Positions 6,365-40,900 of a stretch of DNA of 42,603 nt are shown here, in pieces. The notes below the pieces were generated by a model. That model worked only from the letters and a program-made list of their open reading frames with translations. It searched no databases and was not told the origin of the DNA. This stretch comes from a virus, in the IMG/VR virus record IMGVR_UViG_3300020202_000134, positions 1 to 42,603 of that record; one strand, 5' to 3'. The translations under genes and the position numbers were made by a program. Position 1 is the stretch's first letter, and every line of letters begins with the position of its first letter.

Positions 6365-6430
6365 TGTCGGGTACGCCCATGGTACGACCATGAGGAGACT
6401 CGACTATTTTTATTTCTAGCGTACCCGACA
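6365..6430 (+). ncRNA. Structured RNA element: perfect 12-bp stem with inner hairpin
   Basis: TGTCGGGTACGC (6365-6376) pairs perfectly with GCGTACCCGACA (6419-6430). Inside, CATGGT (6378-6383) pairs with ACCATG (6387-6392) around a 3-nt loop, leaving a U-rich single-stranded tail (6393-6418). It lies between the end of the HTH gene and the terminator. Candidates: a 3'-end-protecting structure, a processed small RNA, or a protein-binding site. No RNA family recognised. Confidence 0.5.
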
Positions 6431-6439
6431 GTTCGCTAC

Positions 6440-6478
6440 GCCTGCTCCCTGACTCCACGCAGGGGGCGGGCTGTTTTT
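6440..6478 (+). terminator. Intrinsic terminator closing the early operon
   Basis: GCCTGCTCCCTG (6440-6451) and CAGGGGGCGGGC (6460-6471) form a 12-bp stem (two G-U pairs) with an 8-nt loop, followed by TGTTTTT. It marks the end of the block of small early genes. Confidence 0.85.
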
Positions 6479-7745: not shown

Positions 7746-8201
7746 ATGAGCAGCATGAGCAATGAAGAGATTGCCATAAAAAAGGCCAAGTTGGTAGAGG
7801 CCTTTAAAGACCCCGAGTTCTTCATGAAGACCCAGGATGAGCAGTGTGAAGAGCTGGGGATTTCACGGGTAACGCTTTGGAAGTGGAAGAAAGAGTTCTC
7901 GCCTGCGGAGTGGGAGAAGATTCGGGATGGGGCGAGGCAGACATATGCGCAGTATGCTCCAGCGGTGGACATGGCGCTGATGGAGAAGGCCAAAAAGGGC
8001 GACGTGAAGGCGATTGAGCTGTTCTTCCAACGGTATGAGGGTTGGAGCGTGAAGCAGAACATGGAGATCCTGAACAAGAGCGACCTGTCGTCTTTGAGCA
8101 AAGAGCAGCTTTTGGAGAAAGTGCAGGGGATTTTGGGGCAAAAGCCTGCGATCCAGCCGGAAGTGGCGGAGGCTGAGGGGGAAAAGGCCGAGAATGAGTG
8201 A
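7746..8201 (+). CDS. Terminase small subunit (probable)
   Basis: A 151-aa protein with an N-terminal helix-turn-helix (about residues 32-55, EELGISRVTLWKWKKEF), a helical middle that includes KGDVKAIELFFQRYEGW, and an acidic tail. This is the layout of DNA-recognising terminase small subunits (phBC6A51-like family). It lies one gene upstream of the large terminase. Start ATG 7746 with CACGGAGC before it; ATG 7755 is an alternative. Confidence 0.75.
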   Translation: MSSMSNEEIAIKKAKLVEAFKDPEFFMKTQDEQCEELGISRVTLWKWKKEFSPAEWEKIRDGARQTYAQYAPAVDMALMEKAKKGDVKAIELFFQRYEGWSVKQNMEILNKSDLSSLSKEQLLEKVQGILGQKPAIQPEVAEAEGEKAENE

Positions 8202-9129
8202 TTTCTGGGGTGGTAAGCGGGTCTTCGTGACCGGGGGGCATGGATTCCTCGGGAAAAGGGTGGTGGCGGCGCTGAAAGCGCGGGCGGTGGAGGCGATTAT
8301 CACGCCGACGCGGCAGGAAGCGGACCTTCGGGACCCCACGCGGGCCAATACGGCGGTGTTGAACACCAAGCCGGACGTTGTCATTCATTGCGCCGGGGTG
8401 GTTGGCGGGCTTTTTGAGAATATGAAGCACCCGGTCTCGTTTCTGCGGGACAATTTGCTGATGGGGCTGAACATTCTGAAGGCGGCGAGCTTTGCGGGGG
8501 TGGAAAGGGTGGTCATGGTGGGGTCCAGCTGCATGTACCCGGAGAAATGCTGGCATCCCTACATGGCGAGCGACCTTTGGGACGGGTATCCGGCGGGCGG
8601 GAACGGGCCTTACGGCGTTTCCAAGCGGGTTCTGGCGGAAGCGGCCCGGATCTACTCTTGCGGGCGGATGGGGGTGGTTACCCCGGTGTTTCCGAACCTC
8701 TACGGCCCCGGGGACGACTTTTCTGAGAGCGGGCATGTCGTGAGCTCTCTGATTGCGAAGATGACTAAGGCCAAAGCGGAGGGGTTGCCTGAGTTGCCTA
8801 TGCGGGGGAGCGGGACCGCCAAGCGGGAGTTCATGTATGTCGATGACGCGGCGGAGGCCCTTCTTTTCGTGGCGGAGTATGTGCGGGACGGGATTTTGAA
8901 TATGGGAACCGGGCAGGAGATCTCTATCCGTGACCTGGCCGAACTTGTCAAGGTGGTGGTGGGGTATCAGGGGGGATTTCAGTGGGAGATGGCAAGCCAC
9001 TTTGACGGCCAGGACCGGAAGGTGATGGATTCGGGGATGGCGCGGCATCTGGGGTGGGCTCCGAAGATGGGGATGCCGGAAGGGTTGCGGCGCACGGTGG
9101 AGAGTTACTTGGGGGCGTTGGTTGGATGA
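8194..9129 (+). CDS. NAD(P)-dependent sugar epimerase/reductase, GDP-fucose synthase (Fcl)/ColC-like
   Basis: A 311-aa short-chain dehydrogenase of the nucleotide-sugar type. TGGHGFLG (residues 13-20) is the NAD(P) loop, Tyr140-x3-Lys144 the catalytic pair, Ser111/Ser112-Cys113 the GSSC motif and His181 the conserved His in NLYGPGDDF...H. GSSC-x-YP plus NLYGP...HV are hallmarks of Fcl and its relative ColC, which epimerise and reduce GDP-4-keto-6-deoxy sugars. It overlaps TerS by 8 bp and TerL by 8 bp, so it is expressed with packaging genes. It could supply a deoxysugar for the glycosyltransferases at 18.3-22.6 kb. Confidence 0.8.
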   Translation: MSDFWGGKRVFVTGGHGFLGKRVVAALKARAVEAIITPTRQEADLRDPTRANTAVLNTKPDVVIHCAGVVGGLFENMKHPVSFLRDNLLMGLNILKAASFAGVERVVMVGSSCMYPEKCWHPYMASDLWDGYPAGGNGPYGVSKRVLAEAARIYSCGRMGVVTPVFPNLYGPGDDFSESGHVVSSLIAKMTKAKAEGLPELPMRGSGTAKREFMYVDDAAEALLFVAEYVRDGILNMGTGQEISIRDLAELVKVVVGYQGGFQWEMASHFDGQDRKVMDSGMARHLGWAPKMGMPEGLRRTVESYLGALVG

Positions 9130-10555
9130 GGAATCGATCCTTCGGGAGCTTGTTCGGCGGCAACGGGAAAGCAAGTGCGAGTTCTTTGTGCCGAACGGGG
9201 TCCAGGAGCAGTTCATTCAGAAGGTGGGGAACGGGAAATACTTCGTTAACCTGCTGATCTGCGCGAACGGGGTGGGCAAGGACTGCGTGACGCAGAATAT
9301 CCTCGCCAACATCATCTGGGGGCCGCAGAACGAGTGGTTTAGAGGGTTGCCGATCTTTGAAAGATGGCCGTTCCCTGAGAAGCATATCAGGGTTGTGACT
9401 GAGAGCCAGCTGGTCACGGAATCAGGGCCGGTGGACAAGGAAATCGCGACGTGGTGGCCGAAGGGCCGCTACACCTCGCACCGGGGCGGGAAGCAGTATA
9501 TCACGCACTACAAGACCGATACTGGGTTCCTGATCGACAAGATGACCTATGAGCAGGAACCGGAAGAGTTTGAAGGCGTGAACCTGGGGATGGTGGTCTT
9601 TTCGGAGCCCCCGCCGGAAGACATCTACAACCGGTGCGTGAGCCGTCTAAGACGGGGCGGGATGATCCTGATCGTGATGACGCCCCTGACCAGCGCGGCG
9701 TGGATTCAAGACCGGCTCTTGGAGCATAAGGACGCCACGGTGGTCACGGGGGACATCGAGGCGAACTGCAAAGAGCATGGGATTCGCGGGAACCTGAACC
9801 ATGTGGACATTGAGCGGATGATCTCCCAGTGGACCCAAGAAGAGATCGAAGCCCGCGTGCATGGCCGGTTCGCGCACCTCTCGAATGTGATTTTGGGCAA
9901 TTCTTTTGAAAGACGGTTCCATATCATCCCGGACGATGTGGAGCCCAGCCCCGGGAGCCAGTGGTTCCATATCGTGGACCCGGCGCGGGGGAAACCCTGG
10001 GCGATGGGGTGGGGCTGGGTGGACCCCAGGGGGCAATTGACCTTCGACCGGGAGTATCCGCTGGAGCTTTGGACGAATTGCCGTGAGACGAGCTTGGCGA
10101 TTCGGGATTATGCGGACCTGATTCGGGTCATGGACGGCAATAACCCGATGGAAACCCGGATCATCGACCGCCACTTCGCCAATGCCAGGAACGATTACGG
10201 GACCACGCTAAAGCAGGATCTGGCGGAAAAGTTCGGGTTGGAGTTTCGGGACTCCTACTCTTGCGAAGAAGAAGTCGAGACCGGCATCCAGAAGGTGAAA
10301 GACCTCCTGTCGTTCAACAGGCGGATGCCCATCGACAGCCTGAACTTCCCGAGGCTTCGGGTGAAGGAGCGGTGCCGGAACATCATCCGCAGCCTTGAGC
10401 GGTGGGACCGGGACCCGCAGACCCTGAAGCCGAAAGCGGACAGCGTCTACAAAGACCACTTTGATTTGGTGCGATACGCAGCGATGGCGAACCTGGAAGT
10501 CTATGTGCCGAGGCCGTTTCAGCAGAGAGGCGTAAACTACGTACTGGGGCGATAA
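9122..10555 (+). CDS. terL: Terminase large subunit
   Basis: A 477-aa packaging motor. Walker A is ANGVGKD (residues 48-54), Walker B is MVVFSE (157-162) with Glu162 catalytic, and an IVMTPL strand follows as coupling motif. The nuclease half has Asp in FHIVDPARGKP, in ETRIIDRHF and in KDHFDLVRYA, the usual RNase-H-fold acids. Start is TTG 9122 inside the end of the epimerase gene; no ATG lies near the conserved N-terminus. The stop TAA shares one base with the next ATG. Confidence 0.9.
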   Translation: MDEESILRELVRRQRESKCEFFVPNGVQEQFIQKVGNGKYFVNLLICANGVGKDCVTQNILANIIWGPQNEWFRGLPIFERWPFPEKHIRVVTESQLVTESGPVDKEIATWWPKGRYTSHRGGKQYITHYKTDTGFLIDKMTYEQEPEEFEGVNLGMVVFSEPPPEDIYNRCVSRLRRGGMILIVMTPLTSAAWIQDRLLEHKDATVVTGDIEANCKEHGIRGNLNHVDIERMISQWTQEEIEARVHGRFAHLSNVILGNSFERRFHIIPDDVEPSPGSQWFHIVDPARGKPWAMGWGWVDPRGQLTFDREYPLELWTNCRETSLAIRDYADLIRVMDGNNPMETRIIDRHFANARNDYGTTLKQDLAEKFGLEFRDSYSCEEEVETGIQKVKDLLSFNRRMPIDSLNFPRLRVKERCRNIIRSLERWDRDPQTLKPKADSVYKDHFDLVRYAAMANLEVYVPRPFQQRGVNYVLGR

Positions 10556-11259
10556 TGTCTAACTGCGTCGTGATGGGCGGACTGGGAGAAGTGGGCCGCG
10601 CTCTGGCCACGCTTCTGAAGAAGAAGCACAAGGTTTACATTCTCGACAAACACGGCCGCCCGGACGCCGAGAAGGTGGACTTCCTGCATGTGGCGATCCC
10701 CTACGGCAAGGATTTCGAGAACTGGGTTAAGATTGAGACCGATTTCTACAAGCCCCGATATACGGTGATTCACAGCACGGTCCCCGTGGGCACGACGCGG
10801 TTGATTGGCGGCAAGATCGCCCACAGCCCGATTCGCGGCCAGCACAACGATAAGCGCTACGGTTTTTGGAAGTTCATCAAGTATGTGGGAGCCCTGGACA
10901 AGCGCACGCAAGCGGCGGTCACGGAGCATCTGGCGGGGGTAGGGCTCACGGTCTCCGGCGGCTGGAAGCCCGAAGAGACGGAACTGGCGAAGCTTTTGTG
11001 CCTTTCTCGTTACCTGAACGATTTGGCTTTCATGGAAACCGCGTCCCGGCTCTGCAAGCGATTCAGGGCCCGTCGCGACGTGGTGACCGACTGGACGATG
11101 ACCTACAACATGGGTTACGCCAAATCCAAGTGGATTCGCCCGCTCCTGGATTTCCCTGAAGGCAGGGTAGGCGGGCATTGTGTGATTCCCGTCTCCCGCA
11201 TGTTGGTGGAGCAGACCGAAAATGAGTGGCTGGATAAGAATTTAGCGTTGTTTCGATAA
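10555..11259 (+). CDS. Miniature nucleotide-sugar dehydrogenase-like protein
   Basis: A 234-aa protein with features of the UDP-glucose/UDP-ManNAc/GDP-mannose dehydrogenase family: NAD loop GGLGEVG (8-14), HSTVPVGTT (73-81), a central helix beginning near ELAKLL, and GGHC with Cys209 where the catalytic Cys of WecC-type enzymes sits. The family is normally about 400-450 aa; here the C-terminal sugar-nucleotide-binding domain is missing. It starts on the last base of the terL stop. It may be an active minimal enzyme or a repurposed fold. Confidence 0.65.
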   Translation: MSNCVVMGGLGEVGRALATLLKKKHKVYILDKHGRPDAEKVDFLHVAIPYGKDFENWVKIETDFYKPRYTVIHSTVPVGTTRLIGGKIAHSPIRGQHNDKRYGFWKFIKYVGALDKRTQAAVTEHLAGVGLTVSGGWKPEETELAKLLCLSRYLNDLAFMETASRLCKRFRARRDVVTDWTMTYNMGYAKSKWIRPLLDFPEGRVGGHCVIPVSRMLVEQTENEWLDKNLALFR

Positions 11260-11272
11260 AAGGAGAAGTGAA

Positions 11273-11626
11273 ATGACCGAACAAGTGAAACCTCAACCTG
11301 TGAAAATTAATATCTCGAAACTCGTGCCCCAGAAGAATGGGAATTTTTCCATTCTCGTAAATGACGAGATTTTGGGAGAAATCTCAGCTTTTCCGAAGGC
11401 AGCTTTTTTGGTTTATGAAAATGGTGCAGAGTCTGTTTATAAGGGAAATGAAAAGGCCAAAACTTACGGGGCTGGGACCCATACCATTACATTCAAAGGA
11501 AAATCATTCAAGGCGGTCGTGAAGGATCTTGAAATCCCTTTCTTGGCGGACATCCCTGAGAATGAGAAAAAGAATGAAAAGGCTCGTGAGGAGCTTCTCG
11601 GTCGCGTGATCGTTACCGAGGCTTAA
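11273..11626 (+). CDS. Hypothetical protein before the portal gene
   Basis: A 117-aa protein with strong ribosome binding site AAAGGAGAAG. The sequence suggests a small beta-rich fold (residues about 10-90) and an acidic/Lys C-terminus. Codon usage is more A/T-ending than in terL and portal. Its stop codon is part of the closing stem of the structured RNA that follows. Possibly a small virion or chaperone protein; no family recognised. Confidence 0.65.
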   Translation: MTEQVKPQPVKINISKLVPQKNGNFSILVNDEILGEISAFPKAAFLVYENGAESVYKGNEKAKTYGAGTHTITFKGKSFKAVVKDLEIPFLADIPENEKKNEKAREELLGRVIVTEA

Positions 11627-11710
11627 GTAGCATCCCATATTCCGGGAGAGGCTTAGCGGCCTCTTAATACGGACCTCCTAAGGGTCTGATCCCCCGGCAA
11701 CCGCTACTTA
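11624..11710 (+). ncRNA. Compact structured RNA with perfect 8-bp closing stem
   Basis: TAAGTAGC (11624-11631) pairs perfectly with GCTACTTA (11703-11710). Inside, CCGGG (11642-11646) pairs with CCCGG (11693-11697) and encloses two hairpins: AGAGGC (11647-11652)/GCCTCT (11659-11664), and a 6-bp stem 11671-11676/11682-11687. The result is a three-way junction below an asymmetric internal loop, followed at once by a terminator. GGCAACC (11696-11702) recalls the SAM-I riboswitch core, but the rest does not fit that family, so I leave it unassigned. Confidence 0.6.
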
Positions 11711-11711
11711 G

Positions 11712-11751
11712 GGGCGGTTCTCTCCAGCGATGGAGGGGACCGCCCTTTTTT
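11712..11751 (+). terminator. Intrinsic terminator before the portal gene
   Basis: GGGCGGT (11712-11718) pairs with ACCGCCC (11739-11745); the stem continues through CTCCA/TGGAG to a GCGA loop, about 15 bp in all, followed by six T. It lies directly after the structured RNA, so the portal operon must have its own promoter or rely on read-through. Confidence 0.85.
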
Positions 11752-11777
11752 GTTGCCGGAAGCTTTAAAAGGACCCA

Positions 11778-13712
11778 ATGAGCGAAAAAAAGACATGGCG
11801 CGAAATCCATAAAACGGAGTTGGTGAACTTCGTCCGAGACTTTTACCGCGAGTCCTACGACTGGCGGCAGAAGGCGTATCACGCCAACTGGGACAAGTTT
11901 GAAATGAATTACCGGAACATCTACGACCCGGCTATTAAGGCGAAAAAAGCGCCTTGGCAGAGTTGCCTTTTCATCCCGTCTTCCAATCAGAACGTGGAGG
12001 TGATCACCTCTGCGCTAACCAAGATCCATTCTGGCAAGAAGCATGCGCTCTCCCTGGAGCCCCGCGAGATGGGGGACGAGCTTCAGGCGGAACTGAACAC
12101 CGCGCTTATGAGCTACTACCTGGAGAAAGGGAACTACCAGGTCGCCCGGTACGACACGATCAAGGAAGCCTGCATCTACGGATCGGGGTTTATGAAGCTT
12201 TTCTGGGAGAAGCGCTACGCCAAGCGGCGAATGCGCCAGCCCGTCGTGGCAGGGTTCATGGATGCCCTTCAGGGGAAAGGGATTCCAGGACAAAAGCTGA
12301 AAGACAAAGAAGTTGTCCAGGAAGTCCTGATTAAAAACGGCATTCGTTACCAGCACGTCCATATCCGCGACATTTTCTTGGAACCGAATTCGAAGGACGG
12401 ATCGCGTCTGATCCATCGGGACAAGATCACCTATGGCGAGCTGAAGCGCCTGGCGGATCAAGGGCTCTTGGACAAGGATTCCGTCAAAGAGCTTTGGATG
12501 ATTTATGAGAACGACAAATTTGAGACGGATATCCAGCCGGTGAAGTTTGAGCAGTCAATTCAAGATCCGAAGCTCCCCCGCCCCTCCTACGACAAGAACC
12601 ATACCGTCTGGGAATATCACGGCCCTCTTCCGCGCAAGTGGATCGATTTGGACATGCCCGAAGACACCGAGAAGCAGATCGAGGCCGCCAACGAAATCAC
12701 GCCCGGGAAGGCGCTTGTGGCGTCTGGGTTCTACTACCTCGGCTGCGAGGAAGAGCCGGATCAGGCGATGGAGCCCCCTTTTGTGCAAGTGGACTACATC
12801 CGTGCAGGGCAGACCTATGGGATGGGCGTCTGCGAATTGATGGCGGGCCTTCAGGAAGAACTTAACGAGGCGACAAACCAGTCCATCGACAATATCAGCC
12901 TTCTCATGAACAAGATCATCATCGGGATTGAGAAATATTTCGTGGATATTAATGAGGTCCGCTCCGCGCCGGGGGCTTTGTGGCGCTTAAAGGGATCGGA
13001 AATTGACGATGTGCGGAAAGTGGTCATGGAGATGCCATTCTCCGACATCCCCGGGTCTTCTTTCAAAGAGCGGTTTGACCGGGAGCGCCAGATCCAGGAA
13101 GTGACCGCCGCGAACCGGATGACCACCGGAGCCGCTGGGGGCGCGAAGGACACGAACCAGACGTTAGGCGGTATGGAGTTGCTGCGCCAAGCGGCGTTCG
13201 ACCGGTTCACGGTCTACGCCTACATCATCGGGCGGCAGTTCGATATCAACGTGGCGCGGAAGACGATGGAGTTGATTTACCAGAACGTTGAGGATGAGGC
13301 GGTGCGCCTGATCCTGGGGATGCAGCCAATTGAGATCCTTCCTGGCGAAATCATCCCCAAATGGGAAGCCTGGCGGCGCATGGCCCCCCAGGATATCGAC
13401 ATCTTCTATGACTATGTCCCCGCCGATGTTTTTGGCTCCGAAAACAAATTCCAGAAATCCCAGGACTTGATGAGCTGGGGGCAATTCCTGGCCTCGACTC
13501 TCCCGCAGTGGAACCCGCTGGCGTTGGCGAAAAGGCTGGGGCGTCTTAAGGATTTCTCCCCTGAAGAGGTGACGGAGATTATTGGGGATGCGGAAGGCAT
13601 GATGCAAACCCCGATGGGGATGGGGCAGGGCGTTCCGTCGATTTCCAAGCCTACGAAGCAGGCGACCGGCGAAGTCGCGCCTCCGGGTGAATCCGCCATT
13701 GGAGCGCCGTGA
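11778..13712 (+). CDS. Portal protein
   Basis: A 644-aa protein in the position (after terL, before scaffold and capsid) and with the architecture of podovirus portal/head-tail connector proteins: N-terminal helices with KAPWQSCLFIPSSNQ, a long region with IKEACIYGSGFMKLFWEKRY, and a C-terminal Met/Gly/Pro-rich tail. Portals form the dodecameric ring for DNA entry and exit. Ribosome binding site AAAAGGA precedes ATG 11778. It overlaps the next GTG start by 4 bp. Confidence 0.8.
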   Translation: MSEKKTWREIHKTELVNFVRDFYRESYDWRQKAYHANWDKFEMNYRNIYDPAIKAKKAPWQSCLFIPSSNQNVEVITSALTKIHSGKKHALSLEPREMGDELQAELNTALMSYYLEKGNYQVARYDTIKEACIYGSGFMKLFWEKRYAKRRMRQPVVAGFMDALQGKGIPGQKLKDKEVVQEVLIKNGIRYQHVHIRDIFLEPNSKDGSRLIHRDKITYGELKRLADQGLLDKDSVKELWMIYENDKFETDIQPVKFEQSIQDPKLPRPSYDKNHTVWEYHGPLPRKWIDLDMPEDTEKQIEAANEITPGKALVASGFYYLGCEEEPDQAMEPPFVQVDYIRAGQTYGMGVCELMAGLQEELNEATNQSIDNISLLMNKIIIGIEKYFVDINEVRSAPGALWRLKGSEIDDVRKVVMEMPFSDIPGSSFKERFDRERQIQEVTAANRMTTGAAGGAKDTNQTLGGMELLRQAAFDRFTVYAYIIGRQFDINVARKTMELIYQNVEDEAVRLILGMQPIEILPGEIIPKWEAWRRMAPQDIDIFYDYVPADVFGSENKFQKSQDLMSWGQFLASTLPQWNPLALAKRLGRLKDFSPEEVTEIIGDAEGMMQTPMGMGQGVPSISKPTKQATGEVAPPGESAIGAP

Positions 13713-14947: not shown

Positions 14948-16018
14948 ATGGCCGATACACTGACTCAACTTAGCACCAACGATAACCTGCTCCCGGAGTA
15001 TTTCGTCCCGGAAGCCCTGATTACCCTCTACAACAAAACGCCGTTGTATGAGTTCGCCAAGAAAGCCCCCCAGCCGAAACGGCGTGGCGATACCACGTTC
15101 TGGAACGCCTGGGTGCGTCTTGCGGGCGCGTCTTCGACTCTGGCCGAAGGCGGCAACAACTCCACCGTGGCTCTTTCCTCCCGTCGCGTTTCCGCGACCC
15201 CGGCGCAGTATGGCCGTGGCGTGAAGATCAGCGACCTGGAAGAGTTCATGACGGTCCTGGACGTTCGTGAAGGCGCTCTGGCGCAGCTTAAGGAATCCGC
15301 CAAGGAAACCCTTGAGTACATCTGCCACACGGGCATTTTCAAGGCCCCGTTCTTCACCCAGAACCAGTCCAAGACGCTGTTCCTGTCGTCCGTGATGTCG
15401 TCCTTGGCGTCGTCTTTCTGCGCCAACACGGGCACGAGCAACGTTACCAACCGGCAGTTCCAGTTCCCGGCGGTGTTCAGCACGTCTTGCGCCCGCCTTT
15501 CGGCGGTCAACAAGTCGGCCCCGTCACAGTCGTCTCAGTTGTCCGTGTTTGGTGTCCGTAAGGCCATCAACCGCCTGGAGCGGCTGAACGCCAACCGGAT
15601 GGCGGATGGCATGTTCGTGGCTTACACCCATCCGAACGCGATCCATTCCCTCCGGAAGGACAAGAACTGGGAAAACTGGAACCAGTACACCAGCGAAGGC
15701 CAGGGCCGGATGTATAAAGGCGAGGTCGGCGCGTTGCGTGTTTACGGCGTCCGGTTCGTTGCCTCGGCTGTCTGCCCTCGTTATGCCGTCGCGGCGCACT
15801 CTGTTCTGCCTGTCTTCATCTTCGGCGAGCAGGCGTTCGGCGTGACTGAGGCCCTTGGCGGCCTGGAAATGTTCATGACGAAGAACGGCGCGAACGGTGT
15901 TGTGGATTCCGCGAATCCGTATGCGACGTACCAGTACCTTACTTACAAGATTACCGGCGCGGCGGCGTGTTTGAACCCGTCGGCTGGCGTGATCCTGTGG
16001 GTGCATGAGTTGATCTAA
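14948..16018 (+). CDS. Major capsid protein, N4-gp56 family (probable)
   Basis: A 356-aa protein that begins with the family-like opening (TLTQLSTNDNLLPEYFVPEA), followed by KKAPQPKRRGDTTFWNAW and a long segment with GRGVKISDLEEF, consistent with N4-gp56-type HK97-fold capsid proteins. Codon use is C/G-ending and regular, as expected for the most abundant late protein. Downstream is a strong hairpin (16031-16058). Confidence 0.75.
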   Translation: MADTLTQLSTNDNLLPEYFVPEALITLYNKTPLYEFAKKAPQPKRRGDTTFWNAWVRLAGASSTLAEGGNNSTVALSSRRVSATPAQYGRGVKISDLEEFMTVLDVREGALAQLKESAKETLEYICHTGIFKAPFFTQNQSKTLFLSSVMSSLASSFCANTGTSNVTNRQFQFPAVFSTSCARLSAVNKSAPSQSSQLSVFGVRKAINRLERLNANRMADGMFVAYTHPNAIHSLRKDKNWENWNQYTSEGQGRMYKGEVGALRVYGVRFVASAVCPRYAVAAHSVLPVFIFGEQAFGVTEALGGLEMFMTKNGANGVVDSANPYATYQYLTYKITGAAACLNPSAGVILWVHELI

Positions 16019-30598: not shown

Positions 30599-30868
30599 AT
30601 GACTGAAGGAAGACGATGGGAAGACAGTACGTTATCAAGGGTCGCAAGACTCTGGCCGTTCATCCTTGCCTTCGCGACAGTTGCTGTCGCTTGGGGCGCG
30701 ATGAAGGCCGATCAGAGGTATCTGGAAAAAAATCTGTTCGTGGCATCTCAGAAAGTAGATAACCATGAAACGAGGATCAGCAAAGTCGAGCAGGCGATTG
30801 TTTCCATGGCAGATCGGCAGAAAGAGCAGATTGAGATGCAAAAGGAAGTCTTGCGGAGGCTGCGGTAA
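30599..30868 (+). CDS. Small membrane protein with coiled coil (spanin- or holin-like)
   Basis: An 89-aa protein: basic N-terminus, one transmembrane helix (about 18-35, WPFILAFATVAVAWGAM), then a heptad-rich coiled coil to the end. It directly precedes the endolysin and overlaps its ATG by one base. That topology fits an Rz-like i-spanin or a type II/III holin; sequence alone does not decide. Confidence 0.6.
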   Translation: MTEGRRWEDSTLSRVARLWPFILAFATVAVAWGAMKADQRYLEKNLFVASQKVDNHETRISKVEQAIVSMADRQKEQIEMQKEVLRRLR

Positions 30869-31302
30869 TGGCATCTTTCGGGGCTTCCTCAAAGGCTCAG
30901 TTGGACACAGTTCACCCCAGGCTTAAAGAGCTTTTCAACGAGGTGGTGAAGACCTTTGACTGTAAGGTGATTTGTGGGTATCGGACGCAGGGAGATCAGG
31001 ATAAGGCTTTTGAGGCTGGGCTCTCAAAGGTCCAATGGCCGAACTCCAAGCACAACTCCTATCCGAGCCTGGCGGTCGATGTGGCCCCGTATCCTGTGGA
31101 CTGGAAGGATTTGAACCGATTTTATCACTTCGGCGGGTACGTTCGGGCCGTGGCTGACCGCTTGGGGATCAAAATCCGGTGGGGAGGGGACTGGGATGGG
31201 GATTTCGACCTCAAGGATCAGAACTTCTTTGACCTCCCGCATTTCGAGCTTGTGGAGGAAGGGCATTCGTCTGACCTTCCTAAGGATCAGATTCGGGGGT
31301 AA
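30868..31302 (+). CDS. Endolysin, M15 L-alanyl-D-glutamate-type peptidase
   Basis: A 144-aa single-domain zinc peptidase that cuts peptidoglycan stem peptides. Zinc ligands visible: His62 in SKHN, Asp71 in AVDVAPY and His125 in LPHFEL; GYRTQGDQ is the conserved loop. No cell-wall-binding domain or signal peptide, so export depends on the holin. ATG 30868 overlaps the upstream stop TAA by one base. Confidence 0.85.
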   Translation: MASFGASSKAQLDTVHPRLKELFNEVVKTFDCKVICGYRTQGDQDKAFEAGLSKVQWPNSKHNSYPSLAVDVAPYPVDWKDLNRFYHFGGYVRAVADRLGIKIRWGGDWDGDFDLKDQNFFDLPHFELVEEGHSSDLPKDQIRG

Positions 31303-32532: not shown

Positions 32533-33525
32533 TTATTTTTTTAGTGGCCAAAACGAAGAAAGGCAGCAACAGAGATTTTTCAATCCCTGCGGCTGCCTTT
32601 CTTCATTTTCAGCTTGATTAGAAAGCCGCTTATGCGAACCGTGCGCGGGGGGGGACTTGAACCCCCATGGGTTTCCCCATACGCCCCTCAAACGGCAATT
32701 ATGGCTTGAAAAATCAGATGGATTTATTCCAAGGTCTACCCTCAAATTAGCACGCAATCTACTTTTTGTCTTATGTTGATACCGAGAAGTACTGCGGATA
32801 TCCTTCCATCCGCCAGTATTTTGAAGAGCATATTGGTCCCCGGTTGATTCCATAAACCGAGTCGCCCATGTATGCCTCAGATCATGAAACCGAATACGTG
32901 AGAGCTTAAAGCGGGCGCGAATAGTTCTGAGATGCCAATGCAGCCGATTGGTTGTTATCCCAACGAATACAAAGCCTTTCTCGCGCCGTTCGCCCATTGC
33001 TTCAATGGCAGGAGGCGGGAGGCAAATCGTTTTCCATCTTCCCGTTTTCTTCTGCCAAATGTCTAGAAACCAGTCGCCGTTTTCATCGATAACCAGCTTC
33101 TCCCAGCAGGCGTTTATAAGTTCACCTATTCGGACCCCCGTATAAAGGGCAAAGATAAAAGCCTTTCGAATATCTGGGGGGCTATTGCTTAGAATGATTT
33201 CGATCTCATCTGGAGCAAGAACACGTCCGACCTCTTCTTCTGTGGGGAACTTGAACCCTAGGAACGGCTTGGTCACGCCGTAATAACGAAGAAAGGTTCG
33301 GACGCCGCGAAGCCATATCCGAGCGGTGTTCGGTTTGTATCGACCTAAGAGGGCCAGCTTAAATTCTGTGAGTTTGTGGCGATTGAAGGTGGAGAGCGGA
33401 ACGTCTCCGAAATGATCAAGGAGGAGATTGGTGGCTGGGATATCGAAATGCTCTACGGTGTTCTCTGACTTGTAGGTGTAGGCGTCTTCGATATAATGGG
33501 CTATGGCAGCCTTGAGGAGACGCAT
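32533..33525 (-). CDS. int: Tyrosine recombinase (phage integrase)
   Basis: A 330-aa integrase. The core-binding domain spans about 1-95. Catalytic residues: Arg132 (TGVRIGE), a Lys near 160, His214-x2-Arg217 (FHDLRH), Trp240 (GGWKD) and Tyr249 (SRYQHKT). Residues about 266-330 extend past the catalytic Tyr, and residues 279-296 are encoded by the tRNA-like attP core (32641-32691), so integration would replace the end of the protein with host-encoded residues. It starts 6 bp after the lipoprotein gene, in one operon with it. Confidence 0.9.
   Translation of the reverse strand: MRLLKAAIAHYIEDAYTYKSENTVEHFDIPATNLLLDHFGDVPLSTFNRHKLTEFKLALLGRYKPNTARIWLRGVRTFLRYYGVTKPFLGFKFPTEEEVGRVLAPDEIEIILSNSPPDIRKAFIFALYTGVRIGELINACWEKLVIDENGDWFLDIWQKKTGRWKTICLPPPAIEAMGERREKGFVFVGITTNRLHWHLRTIRARFKLSRIRFHDLRHTWATRFMESTGDQYALQNTGGWKDIRSTSRYQHKTKSRLRANLRVDLGINPSDFSSHNCRLRGVWGNPWGFKSPPAHGSHKRLSNQAENEERQPQGLKNLCCCLSSFWPLKK
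32641..32692 (-). other. attP core: 3' half of a tRNA-Leu(GAG)
   Basis: On the minus strand this reads from an anticodon loop TTGAGGG, through ATGGG-GAAA-CCCAT (the long variable arm of class II tRNAs), GGGGG-TTCAAGT-CCCCC (T arm), to CCCGCGCA (acceptor strand and discriminator). The 5' half of the tRNA is absent. A tRNA 3' half beside an integrase is the classic attP core; recombination would restore the host tRNA-Leu. The CCA is not preserved here (ACGG). Confidence 0.8.
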
Positions 33526-33531
33526 AAAGCT

Positions 33532-33840
33532 TCAGGGAATAGGCGCTATAATAATTGTCTGTGTCGGCCCCTCTTTTACACGAACTTCTCCTGCTCCATA
33601 CTGGGAGACAACTCCATTTTCAATCACAACATGGTAGTCTGCACGATCATGGGACCAGCCGCTAATTAAACGATTGGTATAACTGTAGACTTCTACGTCG
33701 CCCATCTTTTTATAACTGTCGGGCTTGCCCAGAAGAGATATGACCTCGTTTTTTGACATCCCAGGGGAAACATTCTTGATCTGTTCTCCAGTTGCACAAC
33801 CTAAGAACATAAGAAGGATAAAACAATATATCTGTTTCAT
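33532..33840 (-). CDS. BamE/SmpA-like outer-membrane lipoprotein
   Basis: A 102-aa protein from ATG 33840 (ribosome binding site GGAGGTG). Signal peptide with lipobox FLGC, then NVSPGMSKNEVISLLGKPD, the start of the SmpA/OmlA/BamE fold. The fold is small and periplasmic, anchored in the outer membrane. In a prophage it could alter the host envelope or exclude other phages. ATGA overlap with the Rap1a-like gene upstream; int follows 6 bp downstream. Confidence 0.7.
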   Translation of the reverse strand: MKQIYCFILLMFLGCATGEQIKNVSPGMSKNEVISLLGKPDSYKKMGDVEVYSYTNRLISGWSHDRADYHVVIENGVVSQYGAGEVRVKEGPTQTIIIAPIP

Positions 33841-34274
33841 TTCACCTCCGGAGTCTTGCATGGATAGGCGGCCAATAATGAATTAACCACAGAAACCGTT
33901 GCTTCTTGATGTAAATTTTCCGGATGGTCATTCATCCATTTGATAAATATCTTAACCATTTGATCATTGCTTAAATCTTCTTTTGGACCACAAAAAAAAT
34001 TATTAAAGTCAGGGCTAAGAGTAATGGCAGCTCCTATGGTCCCTCGAATAAATCCATAACAATATGCCATATCGATATATTCTTTTTGGTCTTCGCACTG
34101 CCGGAGGAATTCGTCTGATCTTTTGGCATAAAGATTTTTAATTTGGAAAAAGAAGAATAGAATTAAAAATAGTCTCTTCATCCTCGCCCTGCACCCAGCG
34201 CCACTAATTCCATAGTGACAAGCTGAAAGCGCAAATCCAAATGTCGTGAAAAACAACAAGGCTAACACCTTCAT
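33837..34274 (-). CDS. Rap1a/Tai-family immunity-like periplasmic protein
   Basis: Up to 145 aa. The mature part has the Rap1a/Tai layout: an EFLRQC helix, CYGFIRGTIGAA, FCGPKEDLSNDQMVKIF, a helix with NDHPENLHQEA, and a final SLLAAYPC. In that family paired Cys form disulfides and the protein neutralises T6SS peptidoglycan amidases. ATG 34274 has AGGAGAAGG and an ATGA overlap, and gives a first signal peptide with lipobox-like LSAC; an internal ATG 34181 would give a second, ordinary signal peptide. Which start is used is open. Confidence 0.7.
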   Translation of the reverse strand: MKVLALLFFTTFGFALSACHYGISGAGCRARMKRLFLILFFFFQIKNLYAKRSDEFLRQCEDQKEYIDMAYCYGFIRGTIGAAITLSPDFNNFFCGPKEDLSNDQMVKIFIKWMNDHPENLHQEATVSVVNSLLAAYPCKTPEVK

Positions 34275-34375
34275 AACCTTCTCCTGATCCAACGAATTCC
34301 CGCGCGGAACAAATCAATAATCAGCCAAATCAGAATAAACTTAGGCTTAGATAATATCTTGTAGTTCATACTCAT
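34271..34375 (-). CDS. 34-aa membrane protein heading the conversion operon
   Basis: A minus-strand frame from ATG 34375 to TGA 34273-34271. One hydrophobic helix (FILIWLIIDLF) is flanked by Lys and followed by an Arg-rich tail. Its stop overlaps the next ATG (ATGA), which supports both. Short single-helix proteins like this may be leaders or membrane modulators. Confidence 0.5.
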   Translation of the reverse strand: MSMNYKILSKPKFILIWLIIDLFRAGIRWIRRRL

Positions 34376-34386
34376 AGAGGCTTCAA

Positions 34387-34430
34387 ATTGTAATAATTGT
34401 ACTGTAAAGTGCAACTGTAGTAATCATGTT
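34387..34430 (+). promoter_or_regulatory. AT-rich divergent control region
   Basis: TTGTAC (34397-34402) and TAATCA (34421-34426) could be a weak promoter into the structured RNA on the plus strand, and the same stretch must serve the leftward conversion operon. ACTGTA occurs twice (34401 and 34414) around AAGTGCA, and TACT/AGTA are inverted, suggesting a regulator site. Confidence 0.35.
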
Positions 34431-34441
34431 TTTGCTTCTCC

Positions 34442-34592
34442 GGGCCTGGCGTAAGAGCCGGGTAGCTCTCTCAGTGTTCCGAGGGGCCTACGAGAAACCG
34501 AGACGAAGCCGCCATACCAAGGCTAACAGCCATGGGGGCGGCGACTGTCCGGGTTATTCTCGTAGCTCGGCGGCACGTGCCCCCCTCTTTTA
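34442..34592 (+). ncRNA. Structured non-coding RNA, about 150 nt
   Basis: CTACGAGAA (34488-34496) pairs perfectly with TTCTCGTAG (34557-34565); CCGAG (34479-34483) continues with CTCGG (34566-34570) across a 4-nt bulge. Inside, GCCGCC (34508-34513) pairs with GGCGGC (34537-34542) and GGCT/AGCC closes the tip. A 5' hairpin AGAGC (34454-34458)/GCTCT (34465-34469) precedes. CCCCCTCTTTTATTT at 34581-34595 is a U-rich end. Translated frames look nonsensical. No family recognised. Confidence 0.55.
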
Positions 34593-34685
34593 TTTGGACC
34601 GCAATTTCGTTCTATACAAGTCTGGGGGGACTATGTAGATTTTCAACGCTGTGCGCGGGATTTTGCTCAAATGTGAGGCGTCCCA

Positions 34686-34886
34686 ATGCAGACCGATGTA
34701 GGATTTATGGAACCAAACGTCCTGATAATTTCTGAAAAAGATGGCCAATGTGACGAGTATGAGTTGACCCAGGAGATGCTCATCATCCTTGGGTTCCAGT
34801 TCTTGAAGGCCGCAATGTCCGCTTCTTTGCCCCCGATAAAATCATCCCACCCCGCACCCTCTTCGCGTCTTCAGGTGGTAGAGTAG
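34686..34886 (+). CDS. Doubtful small protein antisense to the RHH gene
   Basis: A 66-aa frame whose first 45 residues look protein-like (acidic, DEYELTQEMLIILGFQFL) but whose end overlaps the RHH gene by about 100 bp on the other strand and becomes Ser/Pro-rich. No clear ribosome binding site. If real, its stop may lie beyond a convergent overlap. Confidence 0.3.
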   Translation: MQTDVGFMEPNVLIISEKDGQCDEYELTQEMLIILGFQFLKAAMSASLPPIKSSHPAPSSRLQVVE

Positions 34887-35034
34887 CAACTACCCTATCG
34901 ATCCAGTCCTTCATTAACATTTCAAGAGCTGCTTTCATGCTTACCTTCGGCCTGTAGAACATACAGGCCGCCTTAAACTGTTTAACTAAATTCCCGTCAA
35001 TCTCCACCTTTAGCTGAGTCTCTGTTTCCAGCAT
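34783..35034 (-). CDS. Ribbon-helix-helix transcriptional regulator
   Basis: An 83-aa protein. Residues 5-50 fit the RHH fold: a strand (TQLKVEIDGNL), helix 1 (VKQFKAACMFY), a turn, helix 2 (VSMKAALEMLMKDWI). The tail is basic. GGGAG precedes ATG 35034. It is divergent from the large RNA, and the ACGTACGT palindromes at 35065-35096 lie between, a natural place for it to repress the RNA promoter and its own. Confidence 0.65.
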   Translation of the reverse strand: MLETETQLKVEIDGNLVKQFKAACMFYRPKVSMKAALEMLMKDWIDRVVATLPPEDAKRVRGGMILSGAKKRTLRPSRTGTQG

Positions 35035-35057
35035 GAAGGCTCCCTATAAAAAAGTTC

Positions 35058-35096
35058 TTGACATAAACGTACGTTTACGTTACACTTACGTACGTA
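35058..35096 (+). promoter_or_regulatory. Strong promoter with two ACGTACGT palindromic operators
   Basis: TTGACA at 35058-35063, 17-bp spacer, TACACT at 35081-35086. The palindrome AAACGTACGTTT (35065-35076) fills the spacer and TACGTACGTA (35087-35096) covers the start point, so a bound repressor would block RNA polymerase. Expected start about 35093. Confidence 0.8.
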
Positions 35097-35687
35097 GATG
35101 AACTTTTTTTTAGGTGCGCCACTAACGCCCTAAAAACTCAGCAGCACCGCTCTTTACAGACTGGTTGAATGAGAGAGGGGCTGGAGCCCAGCAGTCCCGG
35201 TGGAAGCCGAGTTGGTGCTTGACCCTCACCGTGAACGTTACACGGCCCTCCTCAAGGCACCCCGAGTTGCTCCCTCTCAGGAACGCGACAGACGCCTTCC
35301 AGCGTCTGAAGAAGCGGGGTGCCAAGCCTCAGCAGCCCTCTCTCAAAATGGCCTTGAACATAGGGCCTCCTTGAGTAGAGAAGCAAGCCTCCTCTCTCAC
35401 ACAACCAGCCTAAAAATATAGCCCCACCACTGCCAAAAGCAGAGGCCATATCCCGGGGTAATTTTACTAAATCGCATCTTCGTTTGTACTTCGGGTACGA
35501 AAAATGATCGCAAAGAGACACCCCTCCAATGATGACCTCACACGCTAGATCAAAGGCGTCGTTGAGGTCTTTTCTCTTTACGCCCGGCGCGGCGTTAACC
35601 CTTGGAGGGGTGTCCGCTGGCGAGGGCGTAGTTTTTAGGCCGAGTGATCTTTCCTTCTGGAGGGAGATCATTCGGCCTTTCGTTTTA
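35093..35687 (+). ncRNA. Large ornate phage non-coding RNA, about 595 nt
   Basis: It is bounded by the 35058 promoter and the 35637 terminator. Helices read directly: end-to-end 35129-35138/35630-35639 (10 bp); 35170-35179/35336-35345 (10); 35229-35233/35241-35245; 35256-35264/35315-35323 (9); 35289-35295/35302-35308 (7); 35422-35425/35455-35458 with inner CTGC/GCAG; 35483-35489/35495-35501; 35517-35529/35602-35614 (13); 35534-35540/35563-35569 (7). All nest without conflict. Frames across it give no recognisable protein. In size and style it recalls GOLLD/ROOL RNAs of phages, but I cannot assign it. Confidence 0.7.
35637..35686 (+). terminator. Terminator of the large RNA
   Basis: AGGCCGAGTGATCT (35637-35650) pairs with AGATCATTCGGCCT (35665-35678), 14 bp with one G-U, followed by TTCGTTTT. 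The first three bases of its left arm also belong to the end-to-end helix, so folding of the RNA core and termination may compete. Confidence 0.85.
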
Positions 35688-35770
35688 TCCATGCCTACAG
35701 TATGCCCTCATTTTTTTTGCGGGTCTACTGACCAGATGGGCACGACTTTACCGATGGGTAAGAAAAACCA
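35687..35770. other. Short gap before the rightward early operon
   Basis: It has an eight-T run (35711-35718) between CCC and GGG and a repeated CGATGGG/CAATGGG ahead of the XRE-like gene. I see no consensus promoter; the early operon could also be read from elements here that I cannot define. Confidence 0.3.
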
Positions 35771-36079
35771 ATGGGTCACACGGTAGACGATACGACTATG
35801 GGAGCCCCCTATTTCCGCTTCGGGATGTTTATCAGAGGGATCATCGAGGCCCGGGGACTGAACATCCCCGAATGCCAGAGACTCTGTAAGGAACGTATCT
35901 CTGGCCCCCGGTGGTATCGCTTCATGCGGGGGGAAAGGATTCCTACCGCTATTGAGCTTAAGCACATGGAGCGGCGGTTGGCCTTCAATACCCCAGAGGA
36001 AGTCCTTTCCCCGGAGGATAGCTTGGGTCGGCCGATAAAGGACATCCAATTGAATCTTGCTTTAGGGAGAAAGTCATGA
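35771..36079 (+). CDS. XRE-like helix-turn-helix regulator (Cro/CI-type candidate)
   Basis: A 102-aa protein. Residues about 18-65 (GMFIRGIIEARGLNIPE ... ISGPRWYRFMRGERIP) fit a helix-turn-helix in which SGPRWYRFMRG would recognise DNA. First gene of the rightward early block, next to an excisionase-like gene, so a lysis-lysogeny regulator is likely. The start is uncertain between ATG 35771 and ATG 35798. Confidence 0.6.
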   Translation: MGHTVDDTTMGAPYFRFGMFIRGIIEARGLNIPECQRLCKERISGPRWYRFMRGERIPTAIELKHMERRLAFNTPEEVLSPEDSLGRPIKDIQLNLALGRKS

Positions 36080-36270
36080 CCCCTGAATTAATCACTTTTA
36101 AGCAAGCCGCAGCGCTACTGCACATCCACTATGAGACCCTGCGCCGCCAGCGGGCGATGGGATACCTGGGGGAGATCAAGGTTTTCAAGTCAGGTCCAAA
36201 AGCGAGAGAGCGGGTCATTAAGCAGTCCGTTCTCGATTTCATCAAAGCCAAAACTGAGCGGATGGAATAA
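36076..36270 (+). CDS. Excisionase-like HTH_17/MerR-type protein
   Basis: A 64-aa protein: ITFKQAAALLHIHYETLRRQ is a winged-helix opening of the HTH_17 type, then KVFKSGPKARERVIKQSVLDFIKA, the usual wing and C-terminal helix. These proteins serve as excisionases (Xis) or small activators. It is the only Xis candidate, and it lies on the opposite strand to int, 2.5 kb away. ATGA overlap with the XRE-like gene. Confidence 0.7.
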   Translation: MTPELITFKQAAALLHIHYETLRRQRAMGYLGEIKVFKSGPKARERVIKQSVLDFIKAKTERME

Positions 36271-38569: not shown

Positions 38570-39442
38570 ATGCCGTTAAAAGGAGTAGCACCAAAGATTG
38601 TAACACCGCCGAAGCCGAAGATCCTTATCAGCGGGAAATCAGGAGTTGGCAAGACGTTTTTTGCCCTGGACTTCCCAGACCCCTACTACATGGACATCGA
38701 AGGCGGCGCGACGCGGCCGCAGTATCAAAAGAAGCTCCTCGAAGTGAAGGCCACCTATTTCGGCAAAGAACAGGGAAGCCAGGATTTCCGGGAGATCATT
38801 GAGCAGACGAAGCTTTTGGCTACGACGAAGCATCAGCATCGAGCGGTGATCTACGACTCGTTTTCCAAGCTCTATAACCTGGAAGCGGCAATCGCCGAGG
38901 CGACGGTTGGCAGCGACTATGGCCGAGATAAGAAGATGGCCAATCAACCGACTCGCCAGCTTATGCGCTGGATCGACAAGTTGGACATGGCCGTCATCAT
39001 CATTTGCCACTCCAAGGATAAGTGGGAACGCAAAGGTTCTGAGTTGACCTACGGCGGGACCACTTTTGACGGTTACGACAAGCTGGAGTATGAGCTGGAC
39101 CTCTGGCTGGAAGTCGTCAAGGAAGGCAAAAACCGGGTCTTTAAGGTCAAGAAAAGCCGGATTGAGTCCTTTGTGGAAGGCAACGAGTACCCCCTGGACT
39201 ACAAGGTCTTTGCGGAGATGTACGGCAAAGAGGTGATGGACCGGACATCCGTCCCTGTTGAATTGGCCGACGACGTGATGGTGGCGGAAATTGAGCGGCT
39301 TATCGCCGTCATGAAGATCGAGCCGGATCAGGTTCAGGCCTGGAAGACCAAGGCCAGCGTCGAGAGCTTCACGGAGATGTCCAAAGATCAGGGGCAAAAG
39401 CTTCTGGATTACCTTAATAAGAAATTGCAGGGAGGAAAATAA
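38570..39442 (+). CDS. RecA-fold ATPase of Sak4 type (single-strand annealing/recombination)
   Basis: A 290-aa protein. Walker A GKSGVGKT lies at residues about 22-29, a Walker-B-like strand with HRAVIYDSFSKLY at about 97-109, and a VIIICHSK strand at about 141-148. The fold and neighbourhood match phage Sak4-like/AAA_24 proteins that work with SSB in recombination or recombination-dependent replication. Ribosome binding site AGGAGG. It shares one base with the start of the SSB-like gene. Confidence 0.75.
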   Translation: MPLKGVAPKIVTPPKPKILISGKSGVGKTFFALDFPDPYYMDIEGGATRPQYQKKLLEVKATYFGKEQGSQDFREIIEQTKLLATTKHQHRAVIYDSFSKLYNLEAAIAEATVGSDYGRDKKMANQPTRQLMRWIDKLDMAVIIICHSKDKWERKGSELTYGGTTFDGYDKLEYELDLWLEVVKEGKNRVFKVKKSRIESFVEGNEYPLDYKVFAEMYGKEVMDRTSVPVELADDVMVAEIERLIAVMKIEPDQVQAWKTKASVESFTEMSKDQGQKLLDYLNKKLQGGK

Positions 39443-39873
39443 TGGTTCGGTACAACAGTACGGGGATTCAGCCCGAGTTTAAGTTTAAGCCCATCCGTGA
39501 AGATTGGTATGTCGTTAAGATCATTAACGCAGAAGAGGGCCAAACGCCTGAAGGCTATCCCCGCATCAGCATGAAATGCGAAATCATCAATAACGAGGAA
39601 TTCGGCGGGGAAACGATCAACTACATGGTCTCTCTCCTTCCGGCCACAGATTCCAAGGCTTGGATGGGCGTTAAGTTCCTTCAGATGATGGGGGAAGAGA
39701 TCGGCGGAGAGCTTGATTTTGATCCGAAGCGGTGGGAATTCAAGAAGTTTGAAGCCTACATCAAGCCCGGCGAATACAAGAGCAAGAAGACCGGAGAAAT
39801 GGTTAAGACGAATCAGATTAAGAAGACCCGGGCGCATGGAACCCCTGCCCCGGCTGACGGGCTGGACTTCTGA
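39442..39873 (+). CDS. SSB-like DUF669-type protein
   Basis: A 143-aa protein, mostly beta (YVVKIINAEEG, ISMKCEIINNEEFGG) with a Lys-rich linker and an acidic hydrophobic tail ending DGLDF, like the interaction tail of SSB proteins. It directly follows the Sak4-like gene, the usual partner arrangement. Likely binds single-stranded DNA. Confidence 0.65.
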   Translation: MVRYNSTGIQPEFKFKPIREDWYVVKIINAEEGQTPEGYPRISMKCEIINNEEFGGETINYMVSLLPATDSKAWMGVKFLQMMGEEIGGELDFDPKRWEFKKFEAYIKPGEYKSKKTGEMVKTNQIKKTRAHGTPAPADGLDF

Positions 39874-40378: not shown

Positions 40379-40569
40379 AGAAAAAGCCTCCCGAGTTCAA
40401 AGACGGTTTTCTCTCTCGGGATGAGGTGTATCCGATTAAGGGGGATTGTGGACACTTAGCCAGGAGTTTCTGGTGGCGGCAAATAGAAGGCTCTGGCCCT
40501 GTTAAGTATCGATCGGAGATCTATTGCGATGAGTGCTTCAAAGCGGGCAAAGGAAGAGAAAAAGTTTAA
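40375..40569 (+). CDS. Small Cys-containing hypothetical protein
   Basis: A 64-aa protein. Cys25 with His27, and Cys50/Cys53 in IYCDECFKAG, could form a zinc knuckle. ATGA overlap upstream; its end overlaps the HNH gene by 41 bp. Confidence 0.55.
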   Translation: MKKKPPEFKDGFLSRDEVYPIKGDCGHLARSFWWRQIEGSGPVKYRSEIYCDECFKAGKGREKV

Positions 40570-40900
40570 GAAGCAGTTAGACGCAGTGTGGTCGGGAATC
40601 GTGAAGAAACGGGACAAGCGGTGCCTATGGTGCGGGGGCTCAAAGAATCTGGCAGCCGACCATATTTTCAGCAGACGGCGCAATAGCACGCGATGGGTCA
40701 TTGAAAACGGTATCGCCCTTTGCGCTGGCTGCCATATCTTCAAGAAACGTTATAACCCGATGATCTGGGCGCTCATGGTTCTTAATAATCGCTCGATGGA
40801 GACCATTCAGGCGCTTTTGAAGCAGCACCAGGGCGATGAGAAGACGGATTTAACACAGGTTAAACACTATCTAGAAACAGCAGGAGAGACGTTACAGTGA
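40529..40900 (+). CDS. HNH/NinG-like nuclease
   Basis: A 123-aa protein with CLWCGGSKNLAADHIFSRRR followed by ENGIALCAGCH, the two-Cys-pair ADH fold of HNH nucleases; the combination resembles lambda NinG/Rap, which resolves recombination junctions. Near Sak4 and SSB this suits DNA recombination. It overlaps the previous gene by 41 bp. Confidence 0.75.
   Translation: MSASKRAKEEKKFKKQLDAVWSGIVKKRDKRCLWCGGSKNLAADHIFSRRRNSTRWVIENGIALCAGCHIFKKRYNPMIWALMVLNNRSMETIQALLKQHQGDEKTDLTQVKHYLETAGETLQ

Follow-up and report, generated by a model that had tools for sequence, protein, structure and literature searches.

A large, strongly folded RNA of a temperate phage as a candidate leader of the early operon

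Introduction

Promoter-proximal structured RNAs, such as the put RNAs of HK022 and the lambda pR′/6S leader, control terminator read-through in early or late operons; the put sites span about 70 nt and lack a terminator flanked by complementary arms. The C4 antisense RNA and the CI RNA of P4 are processed to stable RNAs that act in trans, and homo-oligomeric RNA assembly is a trait of the GOLLD, ROOL and OLE class. To our knowledge, RNA-based control of lysis and lysogeny has been described for only a handful of phages (P4, P1, HK022 and Gifsy-1).

In the seqA/CI/seqC immunity leader of the satellite phage P4, a small RNA is flanked by complementary segments that control early termination of transcription, and IsrK of prophage Gifsy-1 is a leader transcribed from a phage promoter, with a short terminated form and a long read-through form (PMC4825925). 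GOLLD and ROOL, which occur in phages and prophages, are large ornate RNAs of 580–800 nt and of unknown role that are often, though not always, located near tRNA islands (PMC12286853).

Here, we analysed a stretch of strong predicted RNA structure in the immunity region of a phage genome and compared it with these systems. The window, meaning the whole stretch of 42,603 nucleotides that was analysed, is an entire virus record of IMG/VR (IMGVR_UViG_3300020202_000134).

Results

Genome and neighbourhood of the structured stretch

The window has a 149-nt direct terminal repeat, and therefore the genome, of approximately 42.5 kb, is probably complete, being circular or terminally redundant. The phage is temperate. 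Its recognizable genes encode the small terminase (7746–8201), large terminase (9122–10555), portal (11778–13712), major head protein (14948–16018), endolysin (30868–31302), integrase (32533–33525, minus strand), Sak4 (38570–39442), SSB (39442–39873) and a NinG/HNH-like nuclease (40529–40900). No tRNA was found in the complete genome, and no Rfam family was matched anywhere in it. Small Rap1a-immunity-like and BamE-like genes, which are possible lysogenic conversion genes, adjoin the integrase gene on the minus strand (33837–34292 and 33532–33861).

The structured stretch is placed between a divergent small gene (34783–35034, minus strand) and XRE/HTH_17-like early genes, with Sak4 and SSB further on. 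The first early gene (35771–36079, plus strand) encodes 102 aa and is Cro/XRE-like by eye, with no family match; the second (36076–36270, plus strand) is weakly HTH_17/excisionase-like (Pfam HTH_17, E 0.001, below the cut-off). Two other intergenic regions of the window are also structured, namely, 34430–34595, from the Rap1a-like to the divergent gene (z −3.0 on the plus and −2.4 on the minus strand), and 11627–11760, which is strongly folded (z −5.5 at 11626) and has a terminator immediately ahead of the portal gene.

Folding and strand of the RNA

In a genome-wide fold scan, the strongest folding of the complete phage genome was detected over 35098–35690. This region of 593 nt had a minimum free energy of −240.3 kcal/mol (z −6.65), and none of 100 shuffled sequences folded as well. 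The antisense strand was equally folded (z −6.64), and therefore folding does not give the strand; the plus strand was assigned from the promoter and the terminator, both of which are on one strand. The preliminary description of this DNA had listed perfect stems of 13, 10, 10 and 9 bp, and these were present at a level far beyond shuffles: the perfect Watson–Crick helices of the RNA measure 13, 10, 10, 9, 9 and 9 bp, which makes six helices of at least 9 bp versus 0.8 in shuffles (maximum 4), and no helix of at least 12 bp arose in 40 shuffles, whereas the RNA has one of 13 bp.

From the 5′ end, the predicted fold on the plus strand consists of a hairpin at 35107–35136 (UUUUUAGG/CCUAAAAA, with an inner GCG/CGC; p 0.94, and 0.93 in the full leader), a large branched 5′ domain at 35161–35408 closed by helices of 7, 9 and 4 bp (p 0.96–1.00), and a hairpin at 35483–35501 (UUUGUACU/GGUACGAA; p 0.77), followed by the terminator region. 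The earlier claim that all helices are mutually nested did not hold, since two of the long perfect helices are mutually exclusive: 35336–35345 and 35391–35399 compete as partners of 35170–35179, with 35391–35399 being preferred (p 0.99). An end-to-end helix of 35129–35138 with 35630–35639, also proposed there, had an ensemble probability of 0.0009; it almost never forms because CCUAAAAA pairs locally with 35107–35114 (p 0.93).

Coding potential

The longest open frame in the region is antisense (35252–35692, 146 codons; p=0.042 against shuffles), and its AlphaFold model had a mean pLDDT of 35. This frame was rejected as a protein gene, having no family, no relatives and no confident fold. The codon score was low for the frames in the RNA, but plausible leftward genes scored equally low. 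Family profiles and scans of IMG/VR and GTDB with translations yielded no conserved protein in any frame of the RNA. The reading of the frames as translation noise agrees with these results.

An arm/terminator module and tandem terminators

The last third of the RNA (35517–35636) has a distinct anatomy, in which a 5′ arm is followed by a first terminator and then by a second hairpin with an arm-complementary loop. The 5′ arm GACACCCCUCCAA (35517–35529, plus strand) forms a perfect 13-bp helix (p 0.98) with its complement, the 3′ arm UUGGAGGGGUGUC (35602–35614, plus strand). Between the two arms lies T1 (35534–35579, plus strand), a terminator-like hairpin at 35534–35569 with the U-rich tail UUUUCUCUUU at 35570–35579 (p 0.94). 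The motif scan detected T2 (35580–35636, plus strand), a weak terminator-like hairpin of the form ACGCCC...GGGCGU followed by AGUUUUU; its loop contains the 3′ arm, and T2 is disfavoured in the predicted fold (ensemble p about 0). The module is followed by T3 (35637–35678, plus strand), an intrinsic terminator of 17 pairs with the tail TTTCGTTTTAT/UUUCGUUUUAU, which bears out the earlier claim of a strong terminator at 35637. T2 is absent from the predicted ensemble of the full leader, in which T1 (p 0.94) and T3 (p 0.92) form, as does the arm helix (p 0.98).

A further arm-enclosed element was noted elsewhere in the window, at 6366–6476, where TGTCGGGTACGC/GCGTACCCGACA pair over 12 bp; a strong terminator (6440–6471) comes next, and the small terminase gene is located approximately 1.3 kb further on.

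Promoter, palindromes and the divergent gene

The near-consensus promoter of the preliminary description was found at 35058–35086 (plus strand) as a sigma-70-type sequence, TTGACA-17-TACACT, with 10 of 12 consensus positions. A promoter scan gives 2.8 promoter-like sites in the region by chance, and therefore this promoter is convincing by its position and by two palindromes that lie within it and behind it, not by its score. A perfect palindrome, TAAACGTACGTTTA, read in the sequence between the −35 and −10 elements (35064–35077), is the putative operator 1, and another, TACGTACGTA, right behind the −10 element (35087–35096), is the putative operator 2. Their centre-to-centre distance is 21 bp, equal to two helical turns, and both overlie the promoter. 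No promoter-like site was given by the promoter scan between 35690 and 35771.

The gene divergent from the RNA encodes an 83-aa protein that is ribbon-helix-helix (RHH)-like by eye and is the putative repressor. Its model has an extended N-end and helices at residues 14–27 and 33–51 (mean pLDDT 65). Sequence searches of Pfam, PHROG, NCBIfam and PDB and a Foldseek search gave no match, and the name 'RHH repressor' used previously is therefore a by-eye reading to which HMM and fold searches added nothing.

Searches for families and homologs

An Rfam search of the stretch 34300–35800, at the gathering threshold and at E≤10, gave nothing relevant. The GOLLD model (RF02032) had no match at E≤10, with control genomes giving a signal only below the cut-off, and the ROOL model (RF03087) had none at E≤10, with control genomes silent, so that sensitivity is unproven for this model. 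No family of the C4/P4 CI RNA type was among the Rfam matches at E≤10 over 34300–35800. The RNA had been proposed as a member of the GOLLD/ROOL class or of a new one; the Rfam models do not support membership of GOLLD or ROOL, and the large structured RNA stands.

BLASTN found no homolog of the RNA in phages, plasmids or E. coli, and likewise none in the whole records of Sak4-sharing phages. Pattern-based scans of IMG/VR with translations of both strands of the RNA, and similar scans of GTDB, both of which reach only close relatives, yielded no RNA homolog. The same was the case for IMG/VR scans via the Sak4, XRE-like, MCP, RHH-like and portal proteins. The nearest relative by structural genes is an 11.6-kb fragment (portal identity of 81%) without the RNA region. 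Covariance models of two domains, run over 24 related records, matched the window alone, and the model of the large 5′ domain (R2) gave only its self-match.

Three candidates were inspected and set aside. Chance was judged to account for an exact match of 18 nt in L012 and for a promoter match in L014, and a long intergenic region in L004 is AT-rich and unrelated. The L014 promoter (2682–2720), with TTGACATAATGTTATAGTATGTTATAAT, has a −35 region near-identical to that of the window promoter, a different spacer repeat and no structured leader.

The same anatomy in other phages

Elements of the arm/terminator type were first met in a fold scan of Sak4-sharing phages, and a script that uses anatomy only came later. 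This strict scan, based on anatomy alone, covered 455 kb on both strands and was compared with 80 dinucleotide-shuffled sets. It gave seven matches versus a mean of 0.275 in the shuffles (maximum 2), and four with arms of at least 10 bp versus 0.025. The window copy was the best match and had the longest arms (13 bp). Since the design had been noticed in L051 and others before the scan, the matches in the window, L051, L049 and G001 are not independent of the idea; those in L015, L020 and L043 are independent. One of the seven strict matches, L050 15222, resembles chance. With a relaxed gap, eight matches were obtained, six of which have an exact TTGACA 35–66 nt upstream of the 5′ arm; this hexamer occurs in 2.4% of random 100-nt windows, and the promoter was not a scan criterion. 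Among five reference phages (P4, HK022, N15, Mu and lambda; 184 kb), the strict scan gave one match, on the minus strand of Mu.

The L051 element (phage G005) occupies a place in the immunity region that matches that of the window element, in the order integrase (minus strand), RHH-like gene (minus strand), TTGACA promoter, leader, HTH_17 gene and Sak4. Its promoter overlies the palindrome GTGTACCTAGGGTACAC, and its leader consists of the 5′ arm AACGAACGGGC, terminator 1 and a terminator 2 with the exact complement GCCCGTTCGTT in the loop. The small gene has a Pfam RHH_1 match at E 0.06, below the cut-off, and the HTH_17 gene was identified at E 3.7e-15; similarity between the RHH-like proteins of the window and L051 was not found. 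In L015, the second hairpin stops right ahead of the ribosome-binding site and ATG.

In the promoter-proximal members, the 5′ arm is at or near the 5′ end of the transcript. The arm sequences are wholly different between cases while complementarity is kept, which is the kind of evidence that compensatory change would provide, although the cases do not form an alignment of homologs. The window copy has no TTGACA within 100 nt of its 5′ arm, its promoter being located about 430 nt upstream, and the large 5′ domain has a counterpart in no other member of the set. The window may thus be a variant in which promoter and module are separated by the large domain and its neighbours and the role of T2 has passed to the strong T3; alternatively, the likeness of its last third to the design may be convergent.

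Promoter-proximal leaders with an arm, terminator 1 and a looped terminator 2 were recorded at L002 10476–10600, L003 about 10645–10775 and L016 6738–6870, and further promoter-proximal leaders at L015 1609, L020 5008, L043 14729 and L051 2316. These come from Sak4-sharing phages of unrelated sequence, some being placed before early genes and some after replication genes. Directly after the first three lie tRNA-like sequences (L002 10630–10692, L003 10800–10862 and L016 6878–6938), which carry a T-arm-like GGGTTCGATTCCC (a variant in L016) and are not called by ARAGORN. L003 also has pentapeptide-repeat-like tandem coding repeats of GGGGCGAACCTCGAA units at 11230–11429, at the contig end.

Discussion

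The analysis supports a large structured RNA, probably untranslated, that is transcribed from a repressor-type promoter. We consider it about an even chance that the stretch is the untranslated leader, or attenuator, of the rightward early (lytic) operon under the control of a repressor. In the lysogen, the repressor, probably the divergent RHH-like protein, would occupy the two promoter palindromes and keep the promoter off. On its release, transcription would start near 35093, with the RNA folding during synthesis, and the polymerase would encounter tandem T1, possibly T2, and T3 ahead of the first early gene. The majority of transcripts would stop at T3, giving a stable RNA of approximately 590 nt, and the early genes would be reached by read-through only, a dependence suggested by the promoter scan, which gave no site from T3 to the first of these genes. 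The likely switch part is the 13-nt 5′ arm, pairing with its complement behind T1, and the upstream domain of 400 nt may serve for sensing or for protein binding, or may have a separate role in trans. Since the last third of the RNA has the promoter-proximal terminator design of other phages, it would most likely control the reading of the early genes. In conjunction with its position, the absence of another promoter in the scanned interval and the recurrent 3′ module, the context favours a leader over a free-standing RNA.

As a free-standing product, the stretch would represent a new class of large ornate RNA with its own promoter and terminator, acting in trans and perhaps forming an RNA-only or RNA–protein particle such as those of GOLLD, ROOL and OLE. 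We regard this as possible but doubtful: the size of approximately 590 nt, the very strong folding, the phage location, the branched domain with its long closing helices and the strong final terminator would all be expected of such an RNA, but the GOLLD and ROOL models were unmatched, the window has no tRNA, the searches gave no homolog, and both the position and the 3′ module are leader-like.

An improbable alternative is an RNA immunity switch acting in trans, like the P4 CI RNA/seqA or Gifsy-1 IsrK, in which a short processed or terminated piece with one arm pairs with new transcripts and decides the termination or translation of the early operon. Complementary arms flank a leader terminator here as they do in P4 seqA/CI/seqC and in the IsrK isoforms (PMC4825925), and the promoter-proximal members have the 5′ arm at or near the 5′ end of the transcript. 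In contrast, the arm helix of the window is predicted to close in cis, no Rfam family was matched in the window stretch, which argues against the C4 family, and the empty strict scan of P4 and N15 indicates a different anatomy. That the stretch has no RNA function, consisting of inverted repeats with a role as DNA (origin, packaging or recombination site), chance palindromes or the antisense protein gene 35252–35692, is likewise improbable. Both strands are equally folded, the searches gave no homologs in which selection on structure would be seen, and the antisense frame is slightly long (p 0.042), but the promoter and terminator are on one strand, the 13-bp arms flanking a terminator are beyond chance, and the antisense frame has neither relatives nor a predicted fold.

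Returning to the repressor-controlled leader, a wider proposal, which we put forward only tentatively and think rather unlikely as a whole, is that phages of several lineages have in common an undescribed leader device at operon promoters, consisting of a 5′ arm, a terminator and a second terminator with an arm-complementary loop, and that a new ornate RNA domain of 400 nt has been joined to it here; this domain would sense some property of the infected cell and so control access to the lytic operon. A recurring leader design defined by structure only, if real, could be common and yet invisible to Rfam-style searches, because its sequence turns over completely. This design is a more general lead than the window RNA. 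The large domain upstream of the module would, if it is confirmed, count as a new large RNA of phages.

Compared with the known systems, the window RNA resembles GOLLD (RF02032) and ROOL (RF03087) in being large and phage-borne, but differs in the absence of a model match and of a tRNA in the window, and in its leader position. As in P4 CI/seqA–seqC and the C4 RNAs of P1/N15-type phages, the leader arms (35517–35529/35602–35614, 13 bp) flank a terminator; unlike in P4 and C4, intrinsic terminators alternate with the arms here, the window stretch has no Rfam match, and the strict arm/terminator/looped-terminator design is absent from P4 and N15. Like IsrK, it would be a leader behind a phage promoter, here with predicted terminated and read-through forms, whereas no leader peptide or antiterminator gene was identified downstream. 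Unlike HK022 and lambda, in both of which the strict scan was empty, the window has the arm design, but like HK022 put and lambda pR′/6S, its RNA is structured and lies ahead of a phage operon. By analogy, the window RNA would work most like the phage leader attenuators.
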